Of a DNA stretch of 64,000 nt, positions 43,589 to 63,599 are shown in pieces. The notes under the pieces were generated by a model. The model had not been told where the DNA came from. It searched no databases and saw nothing but the letters and a program-made list of their open reading frames with translations. The position numbers and the translations under genes are program-made. The DNA lies in assembly GCA_001768515.1 (NCBI GenBank), contig MEOA01000061.1, positions 62,001 through 126,000 on the forward strand, in the 5' to 3' direction. The first letter of the stretch is position 1; each line of letters starts with the position of its first letter. Source of the stretch: Bacteroidetes bacterium GWE2_42_24. GTDB lineage: Bacteria; Bacteroidota; Bacteroidia; Bacteroidales; TTA-H9.

Positions 43589-44419
43589 CTACTGTTTGTT
43601 ATGAAGATGAACATCCATCTGGGGAAATGGAATGTTGATGTTATAGTCCCCTGCTTTTTTGTAGAATTTTTCATTCATATCAAAAAATACGTTCCAATAG
43701 TCTTCACTCTTAACCCAAGCTCTGACTGTGAAATTAACAGAGCTGTCACCAAGTTCAGAAAGCCCGATAAAGCTTTCCGGTTCCGGCAATATTCTGGCGT
43801 CGTCGGCAATCAATTCACCCATGGCCCTCCTGAAATCTTCAACCCGGTCGCCGTATGCTATTCCAAATGTCCAGTCTACCCTTCGTTGAGGTTCAGTTGA
43901 ATAGTTGGTGAGCGAGCCGTTGGATAATGGGCCATTGGGGATAATAATTAATTTTTTATCAATCGTGTTCAGCATGGTTGTGAAAATGCCAATTTCCTTT
44001 ACGGTACCTAAAAAACCTTGAGCTTCAATGAAATCACCAAGTTTAAAAGGCTTGAAAATTAAAATAATTACCCCTCCTGCAAAATTCTGAAGCGTTCCCG
44101 ATAAGGCCATCCCTATGGCTAATCCTGCGGCACCAAGAAGGGCTATAAAGGAGGTCATTTGAATTCCAATCATCCCCATGACGGTAATGACCACCAGAAT
44201 TTTTAGCATGATGTTTGTCAAACTCTTTAAAAAGGGGATAAGCGACTGATCTATATGGGTTTTTGCCAATGATCTGCCAATACCGTTTGTAATGAATTTT
44301 GTAGCCCACAAACCAATTATTAGTACTAACAGGCCTCCAATTAGTTTCGGACCATAATCGAAGCCAAAATCTGTTAATTTGTTAAGATAATCGTTTACAG
44401 CTGTTATATTCTCCGCCAT
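43589..44419 (-). CDS. mscS: Small-conductance mechanosensitive channel (MscS family)
   Basis: A 276-residue MscS-type channel. Three membrane segments at about 20-40, 62-85 and 88-115. The pore helix TM3 reads ALLGAAGLAIGMALSGTLQNFAGGVIILIFKPFKLGDFIEAQGFLGTVKEIGIFTTMLNT, and is followed by the cytoplasmic beta domain (IIPNGPLSNGSLTNYS) and alpha/beta domain ending FPQMDVHLHN. It opens on membrane tension and releases solutes during hypo-osmotic shock. Confidence 0.95.
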   Translation of the reverse strand: MAENITAVNDYLNKLTDFGFDYGPKLIGGLLVLIIGLWATKFITNGIGRSLAKTHIDQSLIPFLKSLTNIMLKILVVITVMGMIGIQMTSFIALLGAAGLAIGMALSGTLQNFAGGVIILIFKPFKLGDFIEAQGFLGTVKEIGIFTTMLNTIDKKLIIIPNGPLSNGSLTNYSTEPQRRVDWTFGIAYGDRVEDFRRAMGELIADDARILPEPESFIGLSELGDSSVNFTVRAWVKSEDYWNVFFDMNEKFYKKAGDYNINIPFPQMDVHLHNKQ

Positions 44420-44842
44420 GTAATGCTATTTTTTATGATTCTTCTACTCATCAGGCTTTTCGATATCGCCCCGTTTGTTTGAGTGGTTGCCGGACTCCAC
44501 TTCTAATGGCTAAATGTACAGATTATAACAGGGATTACCAAATTGTTGTCTGAAAAAGCTCCGGCCTTTTCTTGAACTTGTCTGTCATTTTCACCACAAA
44601 AGCTCATATAGTAACCGCTCAAAATCATGGTTATAGTATCCTGGTATCAATTCATTTTGACTATCCATGGCATCGGAACCTCTTTCTATTCGAATAATTA
44701 CTTGCGGGTGCAATGTTTATGTCAGTCTGCCTTTTAGCATGTCATTGCAATGCGGCTGGAATCAGCCTCAGCACCGATGGTTGACTTAAGTCTGGATTTA
44801 ATAAGAAACGCCTGATCTGCTCTTTTTCTGCCAGCCTCCCGG
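44420..44842. other. Intergenic stretch
   Basis: About 420 bp between the convergent-free mscS start and the downstream end of the GT39 gene. I see no gene, tRNA or strong terminator hairpin. Confidence 0.5.
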
Positions 44843-48652: not shown

Positions 48653-48832
48653 ATGAGCTACGACGAAGCAGACATCGAAACCGACCTACACTATATTCAG
48701 GAACTGCCTAAACATAGCAGTGTAAAACCCACAGTGGTTTATACACACATCACACCAAAAGCTACCCGAAGAATTGTAAGTCCACTAGATCGGATTGTAA
48801 ATCAGTGGAGTGATAATCTGTGCTATCATTAA
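48653..48832 (+). pseudogene. C-terminal remnant of a tyrosine recombinase (integrase)
   Basis: A 59-residue frame, MSYDEADIETDLHYIQELPKHSSV and VVYTHITPKATRRIVSPLDRI, matches the end of tyrosine recombinases (TDLRYIQELLGHSSSKTTEIYTHV). The catalytic Tyr in VYTHI and the last His of the HSS segment are kept, but the Arg and His of the RHxxH region and the N-terminal domain are gone. It has its own promoter and start codon, so a short peptide could still be made. It lies directly before the attI-like end at 48862, in the same direction as the cassettes. Confidence 0.7.
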
Positions 48833-48864
48833 ATGGGATATATTTATGATGAAATATACTAGTT
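48786..48864 (+). repeat. Recombinase tail plus attI-like direct repeat, copy A
   Basis: 79 bp that match 63215-63293 at about 65 positions by hand count. It covers the last codons of the recombinase (DRIVNQ) and continues into ATATATTTATGATG and ATACTAGTT. The GTTAGCG at 48862-48868 looks like an integron R' core, where the first cassette joins. Confidence 0.7.
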
Positions 48865-48893
48865 AGCGGTAATGCTAAAAAATCCGAGCACCT

Positions 48894-49396: not shown

Positions 49397-49528
49397 ACCG
49401 CCAACACAGTATATGCTCCATAGGGGTTTCAGAGGTGTGCAGAGCGCATCACTCGCTGGCAAGGTTCTTACCGGTGGATAGGGAAGTGTACACGAAATCC
49501 CCTAGGTAGCATATACTAAACGTTAGCA
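49397..49528 (+). repeat. attC-like recombination site closing cassette 1
   Basis: R'' ACCGCCAAC (49397-49405) is complementary, with one transition, to the cassette's own start GTTAGCGGT at 48862. R' GTTAGCA lies at 49522-49528. Between them AGTATATGCTCCATAGGGG (from 49408) and the reverse complement of CCCCTAGGTAGCATATACT (to 49518) form a long imperfect stem with extrahelical bases, the feature by which integrases recognise folded attC. About 132 bp, similar in size to VCR sites. Confidence 0.75.
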
Positions 49529-49699: not shown

Positions 49700-49785
49700 G
49701 CACATTTACAAACTTGCCAATCGCGTCAAAAACCCAAGTTTGCAAAAGAGCTATTTTTTTGCTCTCGCACCAGTGCTTCGTATCA
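49700..49785 (+). repeat. Cassette-end repeat, type GCAAAAGAGCT, copy 1
   Basis: Contains GCACA-TT, TTGCCAAT, TTTGCAAAAGAGCTATTTTTTTGC and CACCAGTGC. The same ordered blocks occur at 56500-56595. Likely part of a long attC-like palindrome or a remnant of one. Confidence 0.55.
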
Positions 49786-49829
49786 TGGTAATAACTAATT
49801 TTGAAATTATCCTAAAACTTAAAATATTA

Positions 49830-50114
49830 ATGGATAAAATTCTGCAATATATTGCTAAAGAAACTAAAGGTGATTGTTATTCTTCTTATATGTACTGTCA
49901 TGATGGAATTGCAATTCCTATTCTTGACAATGAAGACAAAACCAAAGTTAGTTTAATGGAGTACAGAGAAACCGACCATAATGAGAATGTCAGAGATTTG
50001 TCTCAACTAGCAAAAAAGATTCAGTCATCAAAACCACTATTTAAATTCTTTCTCGATGGTAAGAGAAGGACACGCAAAATTGACTGCATTGGATACAAAA
50101 AAAAATCCTTCTGA
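49830..50114 (+). CDS. Small unknown protein, possibly truncated by a frameshift
   Basis: 94 residues from ATG 49830: MDKILQYIAKETKGDCYSSYMYCHDGIAIPILD and ending FKFFLDGKRRTRKIDCIGYKKKSF. The FFLDG-RR---ID--GY end looks like the N-terminal part of a longer protein. The stop follows a run of nine A residues (50097-50105); a -1 shift there would continue in frame with the next gene, which starts 30 bp later. It could therefore be an independent small protein, a pseudogene, or the front of a frameshifted product. Confidence 0.5.
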   Translation: MDKILQYIAKETKGDCYSSYMYCHDGIAIPILDNEDKTKVSLMEYRETDHNENVRDLSQLAKKIQSSKPLFKFFLDGKRRTRKIDCIGYKKKSF

Positions 50115-50143
50115 TTTTGGCAAATTTGCATAAACTGATAAAT

Positions 50144-51424
50144 ATGAAAATTAGTAAAGCGACATTAACCTTCATTTACTCCTTCCTTCCTATCATTGAC
50201 GAAATGACCTATGATCCAAACATTCTAAAAATGTTTGTCGAATCAAAAATTGCGGATAAAAAAAATGAAGGGACAAAGCCAAGTGGTGAGGGTAAGATAA
50301 TAAATAGAAGAGGTCTTTCTTCATACCTTGCCTTGAATATTGAAATGGGTTATGATATTGATTATGAATTTAAAGCTTTTTTGAGCAACGATCCATCTAT
50401 TAAATTGACAATTCAACCCCTTTTTAGATTTTACACTTTTGGTTGTTCTCTTACCTTTCATGTAACATGTTTCAGAGAAAACGGATTAATTAATCATGAA
50501 GATGTGTATAAAGTGTTACAGATTATTAGTACAGAGGAAAATAACAATGCTTCCCAAACTTTTATTCTTGATGATGAAATTATAAATAATCGAACCCATG
50601 AGTATTCATTGTATAAATTCTTTAAATATCGTTTAAAGGAAAAGATTGAAAGAGTAAACAGAGAAAATAATGTTGACATCAAACTATTATGTTTAAGCGA
50701 AAATATTATTACTGAAAGCTCGCTTTATGAATCAAGTGTTCCTTGGGTGATTACAACAATTGAAACAGAAGATAAAGATATATTGGATTCAGTTTGTTTT
50801 TCTTCAAATGACTTTAAAAGGTCAGAGGCTGTTCATGAGAAACTGAATAGAATTGCAAAGTACGAAAAATTTATTGCACCATTACTTTATAGGGCTATAG
50901 ATCAGAATTTTGATTCATATAAAATAGAACCTTCTTATGATTCATTTTCATTAGATCCTATTTCAACAGGATTATACAATATGTATATAGATGCCCGATT
51001 TTATCTACACATGTCAAGGAGGTCTATTTTTACCTTATGTAATTCTTTAAATGAAAAGCCAGCAAGTTACTTATTACCTACATTATTTGATATTAATGAA
51101 ATATGTCATACAAGATGGCAATCATTAATTGTGCTAAATATGATCCTTGATAAATACATTAGAAAATTTTCAAATCATGTAATTGATACTTTTACTCCTA
51201 AAGAAAAACTTACTATAATAATAAAGTTAATGAAAAAGACCCTTGCAGGGCTAGATGATCCTATGAGTTATGTTATTAGCGGAGATTCATTAAGAGAATT
51301 TTATGAAAGACTAGTTGAGTCATACAAGCTTAAGATTATTGAGGATAATGCTATTAAAAAGGTAAATATGCTAAATTCATTATACAGGCTTGGTCTCGAG
51401 TTGGATATAAGTGATTTGTATTAA
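50144..51424 (+). CDS. Unknown protein, first gene of the ABC/radical-SAM operon
   Basis: About 426 residues from ATG 50144 (a TTG at 50117 in the same frame is less likely). Soluble, mixed alpha/beta at the N-terminus (LFRFYTFGCSLTFHVTCFRENG, NASQTFILDDEIINN) and mostly helical after residue 250 (ARFYLHMSRRSIFTLCNSLN, TRWQSLIVLNMILDKYIRKF). No signal peptide, membrane helix or known catalytic motif is visible. Two bp before the next gene, so tightly co-transcribed. Function unknown; being carried with a transporter and radical SAM enzyme, it may sense or modify the same ligand. Confidence 0.75.
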   Translation: MKISKATLTFIYSFLPIIDEMTYDPNILKMFVESKIADKKNEGTKPSGEGKIINRRGLSSYLALNIEMGYDIDYEFKAFLSNDPSIKLTIQPLFRFYTFGCSLTFHVTCFRENGLINHEDVYKVLQIISTEENNNASQTFILDDEIINNRTHEYSLYKFFKYRLKEKIERVNRENNVDIKLLCLSENIITESSLYESSVPWVITTIETEDKDILDSVCFSSNDFKRSEAVHEKLNRIAKYEKFIAPLLYRAIDQNFDSYKIEPSYDSFSLDPISTGLYNMYIDARFYLHMSRRSIFTLCNSLNEKPASYLLPTLFDINEICHTRWQSLIVLNMILDKYIRKFSNHVIDTFTPKEKLTIIIKLMKKTLAGLDDPMSYVISGDSLREFYERLVESYKLKIIEDNAIKKVNMLNSLYRLGLELDISDLY

Positions 51425-51426
51425 TT

Positions 51427-52455
51427 ATGATAACACTTCAAACATACATTGAAGATATTCTAAATGAGGCTTTAGAAAATAGTAATTATATCGATAGGGC
51501 TTTTCTATCAAGCAATATAAAACAAAGTGTTGCAAAATTATTATCCACTATTCAAAAAATTAGTAATGTTATTGTTGAAGAAAATCGAAAACTTTTCATT
51601 TACGAATCTGACTTAGAAAAAATTAGTAAACTTTTACAATGTGTAAATATTGAAAAATTTCTTTATCAGAGTTTTTGTATAGCACTTGATAATAAGGAAA
51701 TTCATATGGGTAATCAAGAATTAAATTTCTATAATGCACTTGTTTTTCATGTAGATTTAAAAGGTAAAGAATTAAAAAAGGTCTGTACAAGTGTTTTGCC
51801 AACAACTAAATATCAATTTGAAGAACTAATAGAATGGCATTCCATTTTATTTGAATTATTATCAACCAAATACAATGAGTATATTCCTGATGATGATTGG
51901 TTCGATTATGCAAATATCTTTTTAAATTATAAGCCCGTTTTGTTTGATTCTAGAATAACCAGTAAATTCAATAACAAAAAAGGAAGTAATATGAAGTACG
52001 AAAACGAAAAACAAATTCCTATTGAAACAAGGATAAATGTCGCATTGTCATTATTGCAAGAAATACAAGATAACGTAAATCTTACTGATTCAAGTGAATA
52101 TAACTACAGCGATAGATTTGGGAATATTAGTAAAACGCTATCAAGTTTAAATTCACAATTAAGTGCTGAATGGATAATATTTAACAGGTTTCAGGATTTG
52201 GGATTATCACCAGGAAATGACCAATATAAGATAGCTCTTATAAACCTGGAAAATACTTTAGAAAAATTTAAGGAATTTTATATAAAAGAATTATATACCT
52301 TTTATAAGCAAATTGAGAATAATAAAATTCAATATGGAATTGACAATAATGGATCAAAACGAAATCAATTAGATACAATTGGCAAAGTATTAGCAATTGG
52401 TAATACTGCATCTTCAATTTTAATAAACATGTATAACACCTTTAAAAAAGATTGA
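51427..52455 (+). CDS. Unknown helical protein, second gene of the ABC/radical-SAM operon
   Basis: 342 residues, no signal peptide or membrane span, predicted mostly alpha-helical and rich in N, K, E and S. Segments such as IKQSVAKLLSTIQKISNVIVEENRKL and LENTLEKFKEFYIKELYTFYKQIE suggest coiled coils. No recognised domain. The stop is 1 bp before the lipoprotein start. I cannot assign a function; the neighbour relationship to 50144 (similar length, similar composition) suggests they work as a pair. Confidence 0.75.
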   Translation: MITLQTYIEDILNEALENSNYIDRAFLSSNIKQSVAKLLSTIQKISNVIVEENRKLFIYESDLEKISKLLQCVNIEKFLYQSFCIALDNKEIHMGNQELNFYNALVFHVDLKGKELKKVCTSVLPTTKYQFEELIEWHSILFELLSTKYNEYIPDDDWFDYANIFLNYKPVLFDSRITSKFNNKKGSNMKYENEKQIPIETRINVALSLLQEIQDNVNLTDSSEYNYSDRFGNISKTLSSLNSQLSAEWIIFNRFQDLGLSPGNDQYKIALINLENTLEKFKEFYIKELYTFYKQIENNKIQYGIDNNGSKRNQLDTIGKVLAIGNTASSILINMYNTFKKD

Positions 52456-52456
52456 A

Positions 52457-53428
52457 ATGAAAACTGCACAATCAATAATTACAATTTGTTTGTTGATTAC
52501 ATTGTTAATCAGCTGTAATCAACAAAAAAAACAAAATACTGTAACATTTGCTACTTCCAAGAACATGTGGTGTGGTTTAGGCTTAATTGCATATGATAAA
52601 GGCTACTTTAAAGAAGAGGGGCTCGACGCTAAAATATCATATCTTGAATCAGGTAGGTATTGTCTTGATGCATTGGTTTCAAATTCAACTGATTTTGCAA
52701 CCATTGTTGAAGTAAATATTTCATATTTTGGTTTTACTGGTAATAAATCAGTAATTGATATTGCTTCATTAGTCAGTTCAACAAGTAGTGGCATAATTGC
52801 TCTAAAAAGCAGAGGGATAAATAAACCAGAAGATTTAAAGGGCAAAAAATTAGCATTCTGCCCAGGTACAACTTCCGACATTTTTGCAAATCGATTTATT
52901 GAAAAACATGGCATAAAAGCTACAGAAGTTAACTTACAGAAAATACAACCATTGGCAATTAGCAGTGCTGTTATCTCGGGAAGTGTTGATGCTGCTTCAA
53001 CTTGGGATCCGCATATCTTCAACATTAGTAAAACTCTTGGCGAGGATGCCATCGTTTTTAGAGACCCAGATGCCTATACAGGCTACCTTACATTAGCTGT
53101 TCGCAAAGATTGGGCTTATGCTAATAATGAAACTGTAATCTCATTTCTTAAAGCACTGAAAAAAGCTGATTTATTTGCAAAAGCACATAAAGAAGAAGCT
53201 CAACTCATTGTTTCAAAAATGATTAATCTTGACATTGATGTTGTTAAAGCTACTTGGGATTTACACAATATGGAATTAAAACTTGATAAAGCAGAAATGT
53301 TGAAGGCTGTTAATTCACAAGGAATTTGGATAAATCAAACAATGGAGGAATATACTGATAAAGCAATTCCAAATTATTCAGAATATTTTGATTCGAAATT
53401 TTTAGATGAACTTAATAGTTCAAAATAA
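52457..53428 (+). CDS. ABC transporter substrate-binding lipoprotein (NMT1/TauA/SsuA type)
   Basis: A 323-residue lipoprotein (MKTAQSIITICLLITLLISC, Cys20). The mature part shows the type II binding-protein pattern of the nitrate/taurine/sulfonate/thiamine-precursor class: MWCGLGLIAYDKGYFKEEGLDAKISYLESG, DFATIVEVNI, INKPEDLKGKKLAFCPGTTSDIFANRFIEKHGI, VSGSVDAASTWDPHI, RKDWAYANNETVISFLKAL. Ligand not predictable. First of three transporter genes. Confidence 0.88.
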   Translation: MKTAQSIITICLLITLLISCNQQKKQNTVTFATSKNMWCGLGLIAYDKGYFKEEGLDAKISYLESGRYCLDALVSNSTDFATIVEVNISYFGFTGNKSVIDIASLVSSTSSGIIALKSRGINKPEDLKGKKLAFCPGTTSDIFANRFIEKHGIKATEVNLQKIQPLAISSAVISGSVDAASTWDPHIFNISKTLGEDAIVFRDPDAYTGYLTLAVRKDWAYANNETVISFLKALKKADLFAKAHKEEAQLIVSKMINLDIDVVKATWDLHNMELKLDKAEMLKAVNSQGIWINQTMEEYTDKAIPNYSEYFDSKFLDELNSSK

Positions 53429-53431
53429 TAT

Positions 53432-54208
53432 ATGACTAATGATATTAAAAAATGGTTTTTGAAAGTTGTCAAAACGCTTGGTGGTTTTGTTGTTGTTCTA
53501 ATAATATGGCAATTTGTACATAGTCTTTCTCTACTAGAACCAACCTTGTTCCCTTCTCCTAAAAGGACTTTTGAAACCCTATTTAATATTATTGCAGCCG
53601 GTAATATTTTGCTCGATTTATCTGTTACTATTATTCGTATGCTTGCCGGTTTAGGCTTAGCCGTAATTTTCGGAGTTATATTTGGCCTTTCAATTGGCCT
53701 AATAAAACCACTCTACGAATCGGCAGAAGGCGTAATAGATTTTTTTCGTTCAATTCCCGTCACAACACTATATCCAATTTTTGTTTTGCTATTTGGCATT
53801 GGGCATTCCTCAAAGATAGCAATGGTATTTTGGGCATCATTTTTTGTTATTGCATTAAATACAGCCTATGGCGTAATTCAATCAACAAAAGTTAGAAGAA
53901 AAGTTGCGAAATTATATGGTGCATCAAATATACAGATATTCAAATGGATTACTTTTTTTGATGCCTTGCCGCAAACCTTGATTGGAATAAGAGTCGCAAT
54001 TTCTTTTTCTTTAATAGTAGAGATCCTATGCGAAATGTTTATGGGTAGTGAATATGGAATCGGTCAACGAATAACAGAATCATTTACTACTTATGCAATT
54101 CCAGAATTATACGCATTAATTCTTTTATCTGGGATTTTAGGATTTTCCTTCAATAGATTATTTGTTGTTTTTGAAAAAAAACTAGTCCCATGGGTAGGTA
54201 AGCTATGA
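53432..54208 (+). CDS. ABC transporter permease (NitT/TauT, SsuC type)
   Basis: 258 residues, about six membrane helices. The coupling-helix region reads VRRKVAKLYGASNIQIFKWITFFDALPQTLIGIRVAISFSLIVEILCEMFMGSEYGIG, matching the EAA-type motif of SsuC/TauC/ThiX permeases. LPSPKRTFETL-like FPSPKRTFETLFNI near the N-terminus is also typical. It forms the channel with the preceding binding protein and following ATPase, whose gene it overlaps by 4 bp. Confidence 0.92.
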   Translation: MTNDIKKWFLKVVKTLGGFVVVLIIWQFVHSLSLLEPTLFPSPKRTFETLFNIIAAGNILLDLSVTIIRMLAGLGLAVIFGVIFGLSIGLIKPLYESAEGVIDFFRSIPVTTLYPIFVLLFGIGHSSKIAMVFWASFFVIALNTAYGVIQSTKVRRKVAKLYGASNIQIFKWITFFDALPQTLIGIRVAISFSLIVEILCEMFMGSEYGIGQRITESFTTYAIPELYALILLSGILGFSFNRLFVVFEKKLVPWVGKL

Positions 54209-54990
54209 TAAAATTAAAAAACATATACAAGTCCTTTAGCGATGATAATGGGAACATTAAAAATGTTCTTTCGGATTTTTCATTTGAAGTTGAAGATTCA
54301 AAGTTCTATACAATAGTAGGTCCAAATGGTTGCGGTAAATCAACTGTACTGAACCTTTTTGCAGGGGTAATATTGCCAGATACAGGTGAGGTAGTAGTCA
54401 ATTCAAAATTAAGTGAATCCATTCACATTGGGTATGTTTGGCAAGATTACCGTTCTTCCCTGTTGCCGTGGTATAATGTTGCTGAAAATATTACCCTACC
54501 ATTAAGAATTAAGGGTGTGATTAAGTCCCAAAGAATGAAGATTGCAAACGAGTTACTGAACAGCTTTAATACAGACTTAACCGCCTCACAACTAACATAT
54601 GAGTTAAGTGGTGGTCAGCAGCAATTAATTAACTTATTGAGAAATATGGTTATAGAACCAGATATTTTGTTGCTTGACGAACCATTTTCTGCCCTAGACC
54701 AGTCGAATCGTTGGTCGATGGCATTTCGTTTTGAACAAATGTGGCTTGACCTTAAGATTCCAGTACTATTTGTTTCTCATGATATTGATGAAGCCGTTTT
54801 ACTTGGAGATGAGATAATACTTCTTAATAAAAATGGTCAAATTGAAAAACGCATTAAGAATGAATCTCCTCGTCCAAGGTCTGTTGATATGCTTTCAACT
54901 GAAAGGCATATTAATTGCCGTAAAGAAGTTATTGAATTTCTATTTGAACAAGGGGCAATTAAAAATGGTCAAAGGAGGACACAGAAATGA
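54205..54990 (+). CDS. ABC transporter ATP-binding protein (NitT/TauT, SsuB type)
   Basis: 261 residues with Walker A VGPNGCGKST, Q-loop VWQDYRSSLLPWYNVAENI, signature YELSGGQQQLINLLRNM, Walker B ILLLDEPFSALD and H-loop VSHDIDEAVLLGDEI. All catalytic positions look intact. It overlaps the permease and the radical SAM genes by 4 bp each, which ties transport and the enzyme to one transcript. Confidence 0.93.
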   Translation: MIKLKNIYKSFSDDNGNIKNVLSDFSFEVEDSKFYTIVGPNGCGKSTVLNLFAGVILPDTGEVVVNSKLSESIHIGYVWQDYRSSLLPWYNVAENITLPLRIKGVIKSQRMKIANELLNSFNTDLTASQLTYELSGGQQQLINLLRNMVIEPDILLLDEPFSALDQSNRWSMAFRFEQMWLDLKIPVLFVSHDIDEAVLLGDEIILLNKNGQIEKRIKNESPRPRSVDMLSTERHINCRKEVIEFLFEQGAIKNGQRRTQK

Positions 54991-56603
54991 AGATACAGTT
55001 TATACATCCCTCTAATGATGAAAAGCATTTAAACTTACAAAATGGATATAAGAGTTTTCCACCACCAGTTGGTCTTGAAATATTGGCAAACTATTTAAAT
55101 TCCAAAAATAAAGGATTGGATATTGAAATATTTGATGGTAATTCTACCGATAATGACACTATTGTTTCAAATATTAATGGTGATATTATTGGAATATCTG
55201 ATTGGTTTTCAAACCACAATACTGTAATAAAAATTGCAAGAACAATTAAAAGAACCAATCCCAAGGCTAAAATTATAATAGGTGGGCCTAATGCCAGTAA
55301 TTTGGGAGAAAGAATCCTACTCAATCACATGTTTATTGACTACGTTGTTTATGGTGATGGTGAAGAAGCAATAGATGGAATTGTAAAGGGTTTATTGTTA
55401 GACAAAATACCTAATCTATGGTATAAAACAGAAGAAGGTTCTATTAAATTCACTTTTAAAAAATCTTTCAACATAAATTCTACGCTTTCATATAATTTGG
55501 ATCATTTATTCGAATATAATATCGAGAAATACGATAGTAGATTATATTCATATTCAAATAGTGTTTCTTTAACTCCAATGCCTATTTCATCTATAAGAGG
55601 CTGCATTAAAGCACAAAAATATGGAGCTTGTTCTTTTTGTTCAATAAATTCAGATTCCAAAATTAAAATAAAATCAGCTGAGAAATTTTGGCAGCAAATT
55701 ATTGCGTTAAATTCTAATTATGGAATAAATAAATTCTTTGAAACAGGTGATAGTTTTGTTATTGGAGACTATCCAGAACAGTTACTAAAAACAAAGCCAG
55801 ATAATTTGAACATTCACTTAAGGATTTATGCAAACATTGAAACTCTTAATAGTGCAAAAATAGATACACTTGCAAAGATTGGCGTGAAAGAAATTTTTAT
55901 TGGTATTGAAAATATTGATAATGAAGTTTTGTCAATTTCTAATAAATCTAACAATTGCAATAAAATTCTTTGTACACTGGATGAAATTGAAAAGCATGGA
56001 ATCAGTCCTTTCCTTTCATTTATTTTTGGATTACCTGGTGAAACGGAGTCTTCTATGTATAGGAATCATTCTTTTGCAAAATATATAAGCAATAGATTTC
56101 TTAAAATGAACCATATATCATTCAATGCTGGCATTCCATTAATTGGTTCAGAATGGTTTAAAAAATTATCGTCAGAGTTCTATGTAATAAATAAATATAA
56201 ATCATTTACAGGTAAATCGTTAATTTCAGATGATAATTTGGATTATGAACTTCTTTTTCTTTTATCATTAAAATTATATACATCCGTAGATTTTATTAAT
56301 GTATTGCGTGTTTTAAATACTCCATTACATCCTCGGCTAACCAACCAAGTTGCTGGTTTTGGGAATATCACAGATAATATATTAAAATCGAAAAAGCATT
56401 TGGACTTTGCATTTGAATTATGGCCAGACATGGATATATCTGATATTAAAAGTGAATTCAAATTTTACATCATTAAATCAATCAACCCCGCAAAATTTAG
56501 CACAATTGCAATTAGCACAAGCCAATACTCAGACCAGAAACTGCAAAAGAGCTGTTTTTTTCCCCACACACCAGTGCCGATACTTGACGAGAAGCCGATT
56601 TAA
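54987..56603 (+). CDS. B12-binding domain radical SAM protein
   Basis: A 538-residue radical SAM enzyme. Residues ~1-140 are a cobalamin-binding-like Rossmann domain (IQFIHPSND, PPVGLEILANYLNS, GDIIGISDWFSN, AKIIIGGPNASNLGE, VVYGDGEEAI). The cluster cysteines are C206, C215 and C218 (RGCIKAQKYGACSFC), spacing CX8CX2C rather than CX3CX2C; a similar wide spacing occurs in some peptide-maturation radical SAM proteins. IGIENIDNEVL and FIFGLPGETESS complete the barrel. The last ~35 residues are encoded by a cassette-end repeat and are probably not part of the original protein. No precursor peptide gene is evident. Confidence 0.88.
   Translation: MKIQFIHPSNDEKHLNLQNGYKSFPPPVGLEILANYLNSKNKGLDIEIFDGNSTDNDTIVSNINGDIIGISDWFSNHNTVIKIARTIKRTNPKAKIIIGGPNASNLGERILLNHMFIDYVVYGDGEEAIDGIVKGLLLDKIPNLWYKTEEGSIKFTFKKSFNINSTLSYNLDHLFEYNIEKYDSRLYSYSNSVSLTPMPISSIRGCIKAQKYGACSFCSINSDSKIKIKSAEKFWQQIIALNSNYGINKFFETGDSFVIGDYPEQLLKTKPDNLNIHLRIYANIETLNSAKIDTLAKIGVKEIFIGIENIDNEVLSISNKSNNCNKILCTLDEIEKHGISPFLSFIFGLPGETESSMYRNHSFAKYISNRFLKMNHISFNAGIPLIGSEWFKKLSSEFYVINKYKSFTGKSLISDDNLDYELLFLLSLKLYTSVDFINVLRVLNTPLHPRLTNQVAGFGNITDNILKSKKHLDFAFELWPDMDISDIKSEFKFYIIKSINPAKFSTIAISTSQYSDQKLQKSCFFPHTPVPILDEKPI
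56500..56595 (+). repeat. Cassette-end repeat, type GCAAAAGAGCT, copy 2
   Basis: Shares GCACAATT, AAGCCAAT, CTGCAAAAGAGCTGTTTTTTTC and CACCAGTGC with 49700-49785. It overlaps the 3' end of the radical SAM gene. Confidence 0.55.
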
Positions 56604-56666: not shown

Positions 56667-59072
56667 ATGATTAAGGACAAAGAAACTTTTTTAAGGCAAG
56701 TAGCTCTTATGCCGGAGTTAAAGGGGAATAAACTTTCACTTGTTTTTGCGTTACATCCTTCCATAGATATTTCAAAAAAAGAGAAGTTTGTTGATAATAT
56801 TAGTCACCATTTTGTTCGAATAAAAGAGGAAGAAAGAGGTGAAATAGTTTCGGAAAGAGATAGAAAGTCCAATGATATAGAAAGCTGGATAGGAAAAGAT
56901 TTGAGAATAAATAAAATCAAACTTAAATCGGTTAGAGGTTTTCCAGACTCAACCATGCCATTTGGAATAAATTTTAAGAATGAGGACGGGAAACCAGAAA
57001 GTATGATAATACTTGGTTCAAATGGTTCAGGCAAATCTTCAATTTACAATTCTATTGAATACAATTATTGTAAAAAAATTGGCGAAGCTCAATTAAGAAC
57101 ATCGGCCAATCTTGAAGATGAAGATTCCGAGTTCAAAAGTTATCTGAGTCATTTTGACAATGGCTTTGGCAATAGCATGTGCGATATTGAAACAGTAGAT
57201 GAAATATTTAAGTTGCAAAGCACAAATATTCCTAAAGAGGTTAGAAAAAGAATAAATCCAAACACACATTTCATAAGTGATTATGATATTTATTACAATG
57301 GTCAATTAAGCTATTTAAAGGGCAATACTGGTTCTTTTCATAACCTAATTGCAGAAAGTTTAGGGCTAAGTGAGCTATTGCAATTTGAAAGAAATCTTAG
57401 AGCATTTACATCTTATAGAAGAGCAACAGAATCTACAAGAATTAATTCATTGGAAAAGAGCAGCAAAGAGGAAAACGCTTTAATTGTTAGTGCTCAGAAA
57501 TCTTTAGAAGAAAAAAAACAAAAACTTGTTCAATTTTCCGAAACAGAGAAAAAGCAACCATTAGATAGTAAAGTTCAAGAATTGCAGAAATTAGTAGCAC
57601 AATTAAAATTTGCCAACTATAATTTTCAATTTGATTTTCAAATATTAGATGAAAACATTGTAAAGTATGAGCTGAAGTATAAAGAATTTGAAGCACTGGA
57701 GTTTAAGACAGGTAATATTTCTCAAATCCAATTTTTAAATTTGGGCTTAGAGTTATTAAAGGATGCTACTGATTGTCCATTATGCAATAGTTCTAAAAAG
57801 TCGACCACAGAAATAAGTGCTTTCGTTTTAGATAGAATTAAACAAATAGAATCATTCAACACAATAAACCAAGAACTCACCAAGGCATTTAATTATGCCA
57901 CGGAGAATTTAGATAATTTCTTTAATCAAATTGCTTTATTAAAAGGGAAAGTTACACAGGAGCTTTACACTATAAAATCATATAGTGAATTTTCGGAGTT
58001 AATATCAGGTGAAAATAGTTTCATTACTTTTATTGAAACTACGCAGGCAAGTGAATTTTATTCAGTAGGCTCAACTATGAATGATAGTGATTTATTTAAG
58101 CTAAATAAGAATCAATTCTTATTTTCTTTTTTTGAAACAAATAAAGAATACATAAACAATGAATTAAAATCTATCATTGACAATATTTCTATGTTTGCCA
58201 GTCAGCGAAATGAAATAATAACAAACATTGAAAAACAGCTTGCAACTAACCTTCAAAGTAGAACTTTATTTGAACAAATTGTTACAGTTAAGAATGAGAT
58301 CACTGGTTTAGAGCAGCAGTTAATTGTATCAAGAAAGAAGATACAAAGTAATGATGTGGAATTGAAAAATTATAGAGAGCAACAAGCATTGTTTAAGTCA
58401 ATTAAAGATGATACAAGGATTTTTTCTATACATTTTCATACATTACTAAGTAAAGAAGTTTTGCAAGCATTTGCTCCAATTAAATTAATTGTTGAAGAAG
58501 TTCTGGAAAAATATATAAAGCAAGAAGAAAGAGAAGTCGAGCTTGAAATAAAAATGAAAGAAGAGGAAATCGATAGCGAAACTGGTGAAGTTCTTTCGGA
58601 AATTATAACAGCATTAATTGTACCTAAAGACAAATCACTACAACCACTTCCAGTAAACAAGTATTTCAACACTTTCCATTACCGGCTTTTTTCAACAATG
58701 GTTGGGATCAGTATTGCTATGGCATCAAGAATAAATACAAGAATAAACTTGCCCTTGGTTCTTGATGATATCTTTTATGCAAGTGATTTTGAAAATAGGG
58801 CAACGATAGAACGATTTATTAAAGAGTTATTTAAAGTTTTTGAGGAATACACCCCAGAATTAGAGCTTCAATTAATTCTTTTTACACACGACCAATTAAT
58901 TTTTGAAAGCGCAGTGAGAGCTATAGCTGAAACGAAAGTAAAGAATATTGCTTTTGCAAAACTTTTCCCTCACAATAATGCCAAAGACAAAGGAGACTAC
59001 AAAGAATTAGCATATCGGATGCCAAGCTACTTGCCTTACACTATTATGCAAAACACACTTACAAAAGTATGA
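56667..59072 (+). CDS. Rad50/SMC-like AAA ATPase with CxxC hook
   Basis: An 801-residue ATPase. Walker A GSNGSGKSS at 117-125, then coiled-coil-rich arms (about 255-345 and 385-600), a CPLC zinc-hook-like apex at C370/C373, and the C-terminal half of the ATPase with Walker B LPLVLDD (695-701) and LFTHDQ (His741) as switch. The usual LSGG signature is degenerate (YRLFSTMVG). An extra ~80-residue N-terminal region precedes the P-loop. Relatives include RloC, Lamassu and other defence ATPases, but no nuclease domain is visible here. Overlaps the next gene by 4 bp. Confidence 0.85.
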   Translation: MIKDKETFLRQVALMPELKGNKLSLVFALHPSIDISKKEKFVDNISHHFVRIKEEERGEIVSERDRKSNDIESWIGKDLRINKIKLKSVRGFPDSTMPFGINFKNEDGKPESMIILGSNGSGKSSIYNSIEYNYCKKIGEAQLRTSANLEDEDSEFKSYLSHFDNGFGNSMCDIETVDEIFKLQSTNIPKEVRKRINPNTHFISDYDIYYNGQLSYLKGNTGSFHNLIAESLGLSELLQFERNLRAFTSYRRATESTRINSLEKSSKEENALIVSAQKSLEEKKQKLVQFSETEKKQPLDSKVQELQKLVAQLKFANYNFQFDFQILDENIVKYELKYKEFEALEFKTGNISQIQFLNLGLELLKDATDCPLCNSSKKSTTEISAFVLDRIKQIESFNTINQELTKAFNYATENLDNFFNQIALLKGKVTQELYTIKSYSEFSELISGENSFITFIETTQASEFYSVGSTMNDSDLFKLNKNQFLFSFFETNKEYINNELKSIIDNISMFASQRNEIITNIEKQLATNLQSRTLFEQIVTVKNEITGLEQQLIVSRKKIQSNDVELKNYREQQALFKSIKDDTRIFSIHFHTLLSKEVLQAFAPIKLIVEEVLEKYIKQEEREVELEIKMKEEEIDSETGEVLSEIITALIVPKDKSLQPLPVNKYFNTFHYRLFSTMVGISIAMASRINTRINLPLVLDDIFYASDFENRATIERFIKELFKVFEEYTPELELQLILFTHDQLIFESAVRAIAETKVKNIAFAKLFPHNNAKDKGDYKELAYRMPSYLPYTIMQNTLTKV

Positions 59073-60253
59073 GTACAACAGAAAATACCACAATTAGTAT
59101 ATCAAAAAAACTAGCCGCTAAAATTGGTTATTTTCTTTTGATTGTTATCCTAATAATTCTATTTTGGGTTTTGAGAGATAAAAAGGTTGATAGAATGATT
59201 AGCGAACAACAAATTCTAGTTAGCCAGACAATTATTAATACAATTAATGAACAGGCTAAACTTGATTTATTCAAGCCTGACTTAGTCTTAATTGACATGG
59301 AGTCATCTCAAAAAGAACAGATGAATGATTCTCTTTATAAACGATTATCAGCAGTACTAATCAGCAAATATTTGGATAATAACAAAATAAATACAGATGA
59401 TTCTAAGTTTCAACCTTTTTGTGTTTTGCAAGACTCCATAGATAAAAATGGCAACTATAATCTTACTAAGAAACAATTAGAAGAGTTGAGAAATCATATT
59501 CAATTTTTAACATCCCAAGTTGAGAAAGCTGTCGTTAGCGTAAAAGATGAAATTGGTAAAGACATAGACAGATTAAACACTTGGGTTAGTATTTGGATTG
59601 GAATAATTGGATTCTTGGGAATTTTCATTCCTATTGTACTCAACTATAGGAATAGTGAAGAATTAAAAGAGATAAGTATAAAGGCTGATGTTGCTGCAAA
59701 TAAGGTAAATAAAGTTGATGATTACATTGCTAAGAACGAAAAGCATATTGAAGAATTAAAATCGTTACCACCAGAACTTAAAGTTCTAAAACAGACATTT
59801 GATGGTTTTAAAGGAGAAGTCACAACTGCTAAAGAAACATCAAAAAAAGCATTGCAAAAGGCAGAGACAGCCAATACTACAGCCAATAAAGTAGAAATGT
59901 TGGTCACAACTTTAAATAATATTAGCAAAATTAAAGATATTGATGCAACCTTCCTTTTATATAATAATAAGCCATTTGAAACATTATCAAGCTATTTGAT
60001 TGAAATTCATTTAACACTTTCAAATTGTTCTGAATTATTCGCAGAACCAATAATCAAAGATGTATTTCGTCAACTTGCCTTAAAACTACATTTAATTGCT
60101 CCAATTGGATTTATTGGACCTGAAAACTTTGATTTACTAAATCAGTTTGCATTAGACGTTTCAAGAATTATATCAAAGGAGATATTAAAAGAAAACTATG
60201 ATCAACTAATTGGTTTACTTGGACAGTTAAATTCAAGTATAGTAAAGACATGA
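59069..60253 (+). CDS. Two-span membrane protein with cytoplasmic coiled coil
   Basis: 394 residues. Membrane segments at 19-36 (IGYFLLIVILIILFWVL) and 172-191 (WVSIWIGIIGFLGIFIPIV), a ~130-residue periplasmic loop between them, then a cytoplasmic coiled coil (195-290, with KADVAANKVNKVDD and KKALQKAETANTTANKVEM) and a helical C-terminal domain. No known enzyme motif. Translational coupling with the SMC-like ATPase suggests the two proteins form one complex, for example a sensor or mover plus a membrane-acting effector. Confidence 0.78.
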   Translation: MSTTENTTISISKKLAAKIGYFLLIVILIILFWVLRDKKVDRMISEQQILVSQTIINTINEQAKLDLFKPDLVLIDMESSQKEQMNDSLYKRLSAVLISKYLDNNKINTDDSKFQPFCVLQDSIDKNGNYNLTKKQLEELRNHIQFLTSQVEKAVVSVKDEIGKDIDRLNTWVSIWIGIIGFLGIFIPIVLNYRNSEELKEISIKADVAANKVNKVDDYIAKNEKHIEELKSLPPELKVLKQTFDGFKGEVTTAKETSKKALQKAETANTTANKVEMLVTTLNNISKIKDIDATFLLYNNKPFETLSSYLIEIHLTLSNCSELFAEPIIKDVFRQLALKLHLIAPIGFIGPENFDLLNQFALDVSRIISKEILKENYDQLIGLLGQLNSSIVKT

Positions 60254-61162: not shown

Positions 61163-61690
61163 ATGGTAAAAGGACGTAGTACAAAACAGTTGAGTTTTTC
61201 AGAATTTAATCATCCGTTTATCGGGTGTGGGCTTTCAACTGAGAACAGATGCGTAAAACTGGCCAGGATTTTACCATGGGATAAGATCGAGCAGGATTAT
61301 CTCGGGTCTCTGAGTGCTGAAACGGGAGCACCTTCCATTTCAAGTAGGATTGTTATAGTGGCACTGATCATTAAGCATATTGAAAGCTATAGCGATGAGC
61401 GCATGATAGAGATGATCCGGGAGAACCCTTATATGCAGTACTTCTTTGGGTTAAAGGAATTTACCGAACTTCCTTTATTTGACCCGTCATTATTTGTAAC
61501 CTTGCGAAAGAGAATTGGACGTGAAGATTACAAACGATGGTTGAAATATACACTTGACAATGCTGGCATCGGAAGTACTGATAGTCGGGATGATGACAGG
61601 TGGTTGTTGTCGTTTTATTACAGCCTCAATAGGTTGTTCCACAATAGTAAAACCCGATTTCTTTCTCATGTCAGGAGTTTTTTGTGGTGA
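61163..61690 (+). pseudogene. Truncated IS5/IS1182-type transposase (DUF772 N-terminal part)
   Basis: The first ~135 residues match the N-terminal domain of DUF772-type transposases: NRCVKLARILPWDKIEQDYL, GAPSISSRIVIVALIIKHIESYSDERMIEMIRENPYMQYFFGLKEF and PLFDPSLFVTLRKRI. After about residue 140 the reading frame no longer resembles a transposase and ends early; the DDE core is absent. A TAACTTTG box lies upstream at about 61136. An internal deletion product. Confidence 0.75.
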
Positions 61691-62697: not shown

Positions 62698-63214
62698 AAT
62701 AGGTGCTAATAAATAGGACTCTGAGCGGTCTGCAAGACCCGGCGATGAGTACATGTTGAACTACATCCCTTAACAGGCGATGTACTTACGGGCAGTTATT
62801 GATGTAATCCAGCGGAAAATGGGCTGTTGTGGTTGGAGGTATTAATGAATTTGAGGTAACTAAAGTTATCTAATTCTTATAGAATAGTGCTGTAAATGAA
62901 GGGTTTTGATCTTTTCTAGTGATCTGATGGTATAGTTTTCCCTCTTCGCGCAAAACAGGCGGCATTTTAGAAAGGCATTAAGCAATGGTATGGGTTTGGC
63001 TTTGGATGGTCCGACCTGTGGAACATATTTAGGGCAATACTTTTACGGTGACCATCCTTTCTTTTTATATTTGTAACCTGATAACATATAAACCGAAAGC
63101 ATTTTTGTTTGATGCAATATGTTCCTATAGTACCCGGGCAGTATAAGGGCGAAGCACTGAGCGGAAACGGTAGGCAACGAGGGATGAAAGGCGCAGGACA
63201 TGTTGTATGTTCGA
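62698..63214. other. Gene-free end of the phosphatase cassette
   Basis: About 500 bp. It begins with AGGTGCTAAT (62700-62709), an R''-like block complementary in 8 of 9 positions to GTTAGCACC at 49522 and less well to GTTGGTACC at 61879. A smaller inverted pair AGTACAT/ATGTACT lies at about 62749-62786. The rest shows no gene. Confidence 0.45.
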
Positions 63215-63293
63215 TAGATCGGATTGTGAATCAATGAAATAATAATTCAGGTCATCATTAAAAGTGATATATTTATGATGATATATACTAGTT
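63215..63293 (+). repeat. Recombinase tail plus attI-like direct repeat, copy B
   Basis: 79 bp matching 48786-48864 (about 65 identities). It encodes the recombinase end D-R-I-V-N-Q followed by a stop and ends ATACTAGTT; GTTGTGTGC at 63291 would be the core where the next cassette joins. Confidence 0.7.
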
Positions 63294-63599
63294 GTGTGCA
63301 ACCCTAAGAAATGACAGTCAATAGTTTCTGATATGAATGCAAAAGACAAAAGCTGACAAGAATGCACAGCAAGAATAAATAGAGTGATGGTTACCCATAT
63401 GAGTTATATTACAATTCGTCGGATGAAAACTCTATACTCAGATTTGTCTTGGATATAGGTATTCCAATGAAAACGTTGTAGTTTTCGTTCGAGGAATAAA
63501 TTAAGCAATAGAGTTGGGATTTTATCTATTGCTCTATTAGGCTTAAAAATAAATGGTGAAGTAAGCCTAAGAATAAAACAGAAAGAAATTAACATATAT

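Follow-up and report, generated by a model that had tools for sequence, protein, structure and literature searches.

The operon and its parts

We analysed a stretch of 64,000 nucleotides (nt) from the genome of Bacteroidetes bacterium GWE2_42_24 (G000:C61:62001-126000, here called the window; the parent assembly comprises 67 contigs and 4.3 Mb). Within it lies an operon of six genes, which encode two proteins of undescribed families (P1 and P2), the substrate-binding lipoprotein (SBP), permease and ATPase of an ATP-binding cassette (ABC) importer and a B12-binding radical S-adenosylmethionine (SAM) enzyme (Table 1). The open reading frames (ORFs) are separated by 2, 1, 3, -4 and -4 nt, negative values being 4-nt overlaps, in agreement with a first-pass annotation that had described a tight six-gene unit. 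With stop codons at the local frequency of 0.0835 per codon, an open frame would arise by chance with a probability of about 7e-17 at 426 codons, 1e-13 at 342 and 4e-21 at 538. Each operon gene has a GC content of 26-35%, as against about 45% across most of the window's first 44 kb, so that the stretch is foreign in composition. In the operon, familiar kinds of parts are arranged in a new way around a novel protein family.

Table 1. Features of the operon and its left and right flanks (positions within the window)
Feature	Position	Strand	Properties	Remarks
P1	50144..51424	+	426 aa, ATG start; in-frame TTG at 50117 possible	first core gene, undescribed family
P2	51427..52455	+	342 aa, undescribed	variable second slot of core
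SBP, substrate-binding lipoprotein, NMT1/SsuA-TauA type	52457..53428	+	lipobox LISC	PF09084 1.4e-27
Importer permease	53432..54208	+		PF00528 (BPD_transp_1) 7e-14
Importer ATPase	54205..54990	+		PF00005 6.6e-27
B12-binding radical SAM enzyme	54987..56603	+	Cx8Cx2C; DPANN-type subfamily	PF02310 1.2e-13, PF04055 5.9e-14
attC-like imperfect inverted repeat	49401..49527	+	arms 49408-49429/49496-49517, 86% complementary	DNA fold z -2.6
36-nt direct repeat, left copy	49741..49776	+	86% identical to right copy	0 expected by chance (shuffled)
36-nt direct repeat, right copy	56542..56577	+		within 3' end of radical SAM ORF
Decayed N-terminal fragment	49788..50114	+	family of 386-396 aa	ends in 9-A run before P1

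P1 and P2, listed as unknown in the first pass, retained that status when we searched the profile libraries and PDB: neither matched Pfam, NCBIfam, PADLOC or PHROGs (nothing below an E-value of 0.1) or any PDB sequence. P2 is predicted to be mostly helical. Searches with both proteins in about 300 genomes of the phylum returned spurious matches only. P1 matches in L004 (rsmH), L005 and L181 (PatB-type aminotransferase) were dismissed as spurious on gene context. Among 159 genomes of the same order, a true P1 homologue was present in one, G867. P1 is thus rare: the roughly 450 genomes sampled from phylum and order yielded a single homologue. The homologue (G867:C3:25940-27361; phmmer 1.4e-51) is about 30-35% identical along its length, and the invariant blocks include LTI.PLFRF, PWVIT, SRRSI and RWQSL.

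The SBP, permease and ATPase, encoded in one operon, fit the family models of NitT/TauT-type ABC importers, and Pfam bore out both the importer and the B12-binding radical SAM labels of the first pass (NMT1, BPD_transp_1 and ABC ATPase; B12-binding and Radical_SAM). The importer matches the nutrient-uptake family TIGR01728 (7.5e-29) and falls far short of every substrate equivalog cutoff in NCBIfam (taurine, sulfonate, nitrate and Sec-assisted organometallic, SAO). The best NCBIfam scores of the ATPase and permease are to SaoA and SaoP of the SAO importer, but these reach 170 of the 360 and 130 of the 295 bits needed, and no SaoB, SaoC, SaoT or SaoL partner genes were seen. The GTTS loop of the SBP aligns with GSSSH of SsuA and STTH of TauA, and a W-x-P motif (W-D-P in the SBP) can also be aligned; these alignments suggest that the ligand is small and carries an anionic group. 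SBP matches on plasmids reach 31% identity at most. We rejected an assignment of the ATPase to PADLOC mad3/mad8, whose matches are generic to the ABC domain and score below the importer models.

The radical SAM enzyme has an N-terminal B12-binding domain followed by the radical SAM domain. In place of the canonical Cx3Cx2C its cluster motif reads RGC-x8-C-x2-C, a widened spacing found in most close relatives too and shared with a Streptomyces enzyme (L055, Cx7-8Cx2C). Like the B12 radical SAM methyltransferases TIGR03975, HpnJ and L055 it combines both domains, and it probably adds methyl groups; unlike them, it belongs to a separate subfamily with enzymes of DPANN archaea (99/97). Against the TIGR03975 model of C-methyltransferases of ribosomally synthesized and post-translationally modified peptides (RiPPs) it scores 113.2 bits, below the cutoff of 281.85. 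The closest relatives found are from DPANN archaea (L169, 38% identity over 440 aa; L170, 35%; L072, 30%), and the tree places the window enzyme inside the DPANN set (97/92 and 99/97, the latter for a 13-sequence set). Sampled Bacteroidota and plasmids held no relative closer than about 25-30% identity; phyla other than Bacteroidota and archaea were reached by a pattern-limited scan only. Because its closest relatives are archaeal, the gene looks like an acquired accessory, and like the product of gene exchange between DPANN archaea and Bacteroidota. The open frames of the archaeal relatives span 438-523 codons, and the window copy extends about 100 aa further at the C-terminus than the closest of them (about 440 aa), its last 20 residues being repeat-encoded.

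Genes beside the archaeal relatives differ from those of the window and vary among loci. At L072:6184-8244, in a Nanoarchaeota metagenome-assembled genome, the subfamily enzyme is followed directly by a cyclodipeptide synthase (PF16715, 8.2e-14), possibly as an archaeal cyclodipeptide tailoring pair. The L172 relative adjoins PanD-like and AsnB-like genes (named by eye). Secreted-looking proteins of about 210-250 aa, which look mutually unlike, precede the relatives in L169, L170 and L171, together with divergent TrmB-like regulators; archaeal neighbours in general include TrmB- or Lrp-type regulators (named by eye, except the TrmB of L072). Bacteroidota radical SAM neighbourhoods (L056-L063) contained no importer SBP or permease, no P1 and no P2.

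A conserved core with an exchanged second gene

G867 encodes, in the window's order, the P1 homologue, a 509-aa protein in the second position (slot 2), an SBP, a permease and an ATPase, with spacings of about -8, 19, 12 and -16 nt (the last varies with the choice of start codon). Searches recovered the SBP, permease and ATPase at E-values of 2.5e-66, 7e-68 and 8e-61. The importer proteins are 36%, 45% and 39% identical to their window counterparts, well above other sampled Bacteroidota importers: the G867 SBP and permease score 217 and 222 bits, and the next best in about 200 sampled genomes 103 and 116 bits. Window and G867 proteins are sisters in the trees of both the SBP (96/95) and the permease (96/93). 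The core of P1, slot-2 gene, SBP, permease and ATPase is conserved between two genomes of the same order that are distant relatives.

The slot-2 protein of G867 carries a TIR domain, a type known from bacterial immunity, at residues 194-337 or so, flanked by long N- and C-terminal regions (Pfam TIR_2, 2.4e-15; Thoeris ThsB profile, 1.4e-36). P2 showed no similarity to it in shuffled local alignments, whole or by domain; judged by these alignments, slot 2 holds unrelated proteins in the window and G867. The first gene is conserved and the second exchanged, with a TIR domain in one version; this suggests a sensor with a swappable effector, and by analogy an exchanged slot with TIR would follow the pattern usual for effectors of conflict systems. 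The first-pass annotation was to count as refuted if the two unknown genes never occurred with the transporter and radical SAM genes elsewhere. P1 does occur with the transporter: the sole homologue found precedes the same importer. For P2 the slot is kept, and the gene in it is that of the unrelated TIR protein. Convergent genes at the G867 locus encode an arginase-family protein, an unknown protein and a NodU-type carbamoyltransferase, and RhuM-like and Bro-N-like genes (named by eye) precede P1.

We read the wider pattern from the neighbourhoods of a subset of the SBP matches in the phylum. In G139, from another family of the phylum, seven genes, consecutive ones overlapping, encode unknown proteins of 418 and 271 aa, a small membrane protein, SBP, ATPase, permease and a SAM methyltransferase (L027:5431-11085), a layout like that of the window operon. 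G082 (L026:3416-11093) has a NitT/TauT-type importer with SBP, ATPase, permease and a membrane protein with a methyltransferase domain; its permease, the next closest after that of G867, groups as sister to the window and G867 permeases (97/97). The importer genes come immediately after an HsdR gene of type I restriction, and a type VI retron-like reverse transcriptase is encoded nearby. A methyl-transferring enzyme at the end of an importer operon thus recurs in the window, G139 and G082, the enzymes being non-homologous. Four other importer loci (L023, L024, L025 and L028) had no such features, and two of them adjoin probable sensor kinases.

Proposed import, sensing and response

We tentatively read the six-gene unit as an import-sense-respond module that is horizontally mobile, has an exchangeable effector and probably belongs to the conflict or immunity type, and give this a probability of roughly 0.4. 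The lipoprotein and importer would bring in a small anionic molecule through an SsuA/TauA-type pocket. P1, as the only conserved non-transport protein, would detect that molecule or its product in the cytoplasm and control the slot-2 effector, which in its TIR version might cleave NAD+ or produce a signal derived from NAD. By C-methylating the ligand or a partner, the radical SAM enzyme may decide whether a response is triggered. The likeliest purpose would be conflict, immunity or kin signalling. In favour of this module we count the core shared with G867, the exchange of slot 2 with a TIR domain in one version, the layout of the G139 operon and the island setting (a decayed gene fragment and an SMC ATPase matching LmuB in the window, RhuM-like and Bro-N-like genes in G867, HsdR and a retron reverse transcriptase in G082).

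Several results weigh against it. G867 is the single certain further example of P1, and searches of IMG/VR, plasmids and phages with P1, P2 and the G867 P1 recovered no copies. P2 has no recognisable effector domain and no TIR match in the library searches, and AlphaFold models from single sequences were unusable (predicted local distance difference test scores of 38 for P1 and 41 for P2). The colinear alignment of the first G139 protein with P1 is marginal (semi-global z of 5.7 against P1 and 1.0 against the G867 homologue); homology is suggested at best, and we do not claim it because the alignment fails against the G867 homologue. The radical SAM gene, which the first pass had counted within the co-occurring set, is absent from the 37.5-kb G867 contig, and its archaeal relatives adjoin other genes. 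We know of no described immune system that relies on a binding-protein-dependent importer, and the proposed purpose therefore rests on association.

Comparison with described systems places the operon beside several of them. It resembles NitT/TauT-family (NMT1/SsuA/TauA-type) importers in its binding lipoprotein, single permease and ATPase, and differs in that these are joined to P1 and a variable slot-2 gene, with TIR in one version. The TIR of the G867 slot-2 protein is like that of ThsB of Thoeris; however, P2 lacks a TIR match, the window operon has an importer, and P1 and its G867 homologue match no family, ThsA (SIR2/SLOG or Macro) included. A radical SAM enzyme accompanies TIR or other effectors in the FxSxx and FtsH-type ternary conflict systems, and the word ABC never occurs in the text that describes them (PMC7159879). 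Related operons here likewise contain a radical SAM enzyme and a TIR-type effector, but we saw no gene for a vWA, MoxR or AP-ATPase protein, and the enzyme is of the B12 type, without a SPASM match. Searches of the open-access literature turned up no description of a system in which TIR effectors are coupled to an importer of this kind.

The chief competing explanation, which we consider somewhat unlikely, is an operon for ordinary acquisition and conversion: the importer would take up a compound resembling a sulfonate, taurine or a vitamin precursor, and the radical SAM enzyme would methylate or rearrange it, with P1 and P2 in accessory or regulatory roles. The match of the importer to a nutrient-uptake family, the 4-nt overlap of the ATPase and radical SAM genes and the methyltransferase genes that end other sampled importer operons all agree with it, but conservation of the core does not extend to the radical SAM enzyme, a nutrient operon would be an odd place for a TIR domain in slot 2, and both the rarity of P1 and the island setting sit poorly with it. 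Between the two functions offered in the first pass, uptake with conversion or sensing, sensing fits better; conversion stays plausible because the G139 and G082 importer operons also end with a methyltransferase.

The DPANN affinity of the radical SAM gene, its absence from the G867 contig and its end inside a repeat would also be expected if a module running from P1 to the ATPase had been joined by chance, through cassette-like recombination, to a separately arrived gene with an unrelated job. Given its 4-nt translational overlap with the ATPase gene, the uniform GC content of 26-35% and the methyltransferases found in the corresponding terminal position of two other importer loci, we regard such a chance joining as distinctly unlikely. 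Very improbable is a natural-product pathway in which a peptide or amino-acid derivative would be imported again after tailoring by the radical SAM enzyme: the best named models of this enzyme are RiPP C-methyltransferases and one archaeal relative adjoins a cyclodipeptide synthase, but all NCBIfam scores lie far under cutoff, neither a precursor peptide nor a synthetase was seen next to the operon, and the core occurs without the enzyme.

ABC importers are regarded as nutrient uptake systems. If a conserved importer core were wired to exchangeable effectors such as TIR proteins, bacteria would possess a system of immunity or kin recognition whose triggers are small molecules brought in from outside, and P1 would offer a sequence handle for finding and testing such systems. 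The more specific proposal of the import-sense-respond reading, that this is a new class of conflict or immune module whose binding-protein-dependent importer passes a molecule from outside to P1 as a conserved sensor that fires an exchangeable effector (TIR or other), while the terminal methyl-transferring enzyme alters the triggering molecules and so makes them tolerable to the cell, we judge unlikely.

Flanking repeats and neighbouring genes

The attC-like stem upstream of the operon recurs at G000:C61:7610-7757 (88%) and, in part, on two other contigs, which makes it a repeat family of this genome. The first-pass annotation had placed the operon in a cassette array, and this was only partly upheld: an attC-like stem lies upstream and the 36-nt direct repeat brackets the unit. 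The fragment between left repeat and P1 is a decayed gene outside the operon, 43% identical over 92 aa to a protein of L009 and 31% to one of L010, both intact. A frameshift at the A9 run that would join ORF 49830 to P1 was rejected, as the homologues in L009 and L010 do not run on into P1.

Downstream of the operon (56667-60253) lies a gene for an SMC-type ATPase of 801 aa with a weak match to Lamassu LmuB (5.5e-8). It overlaps a membrane coiled-coil gene (394 aa) by 4 nt, and the two are possibly a separate defence pair. A truncated DUF772-type transposase gene follows at 61163-61690. Copies of a 110-nt direct repeat, 76% identical and 14.4 kb apart (48774-48883 and 63203-63312), bracket the low-GC block. 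On the minus strand, at 44437-44505, a DUF805 RNA motif (RF03081, 71.8 bits) stands just upstream of an MscS-like gene on the same strand (43589-44419).

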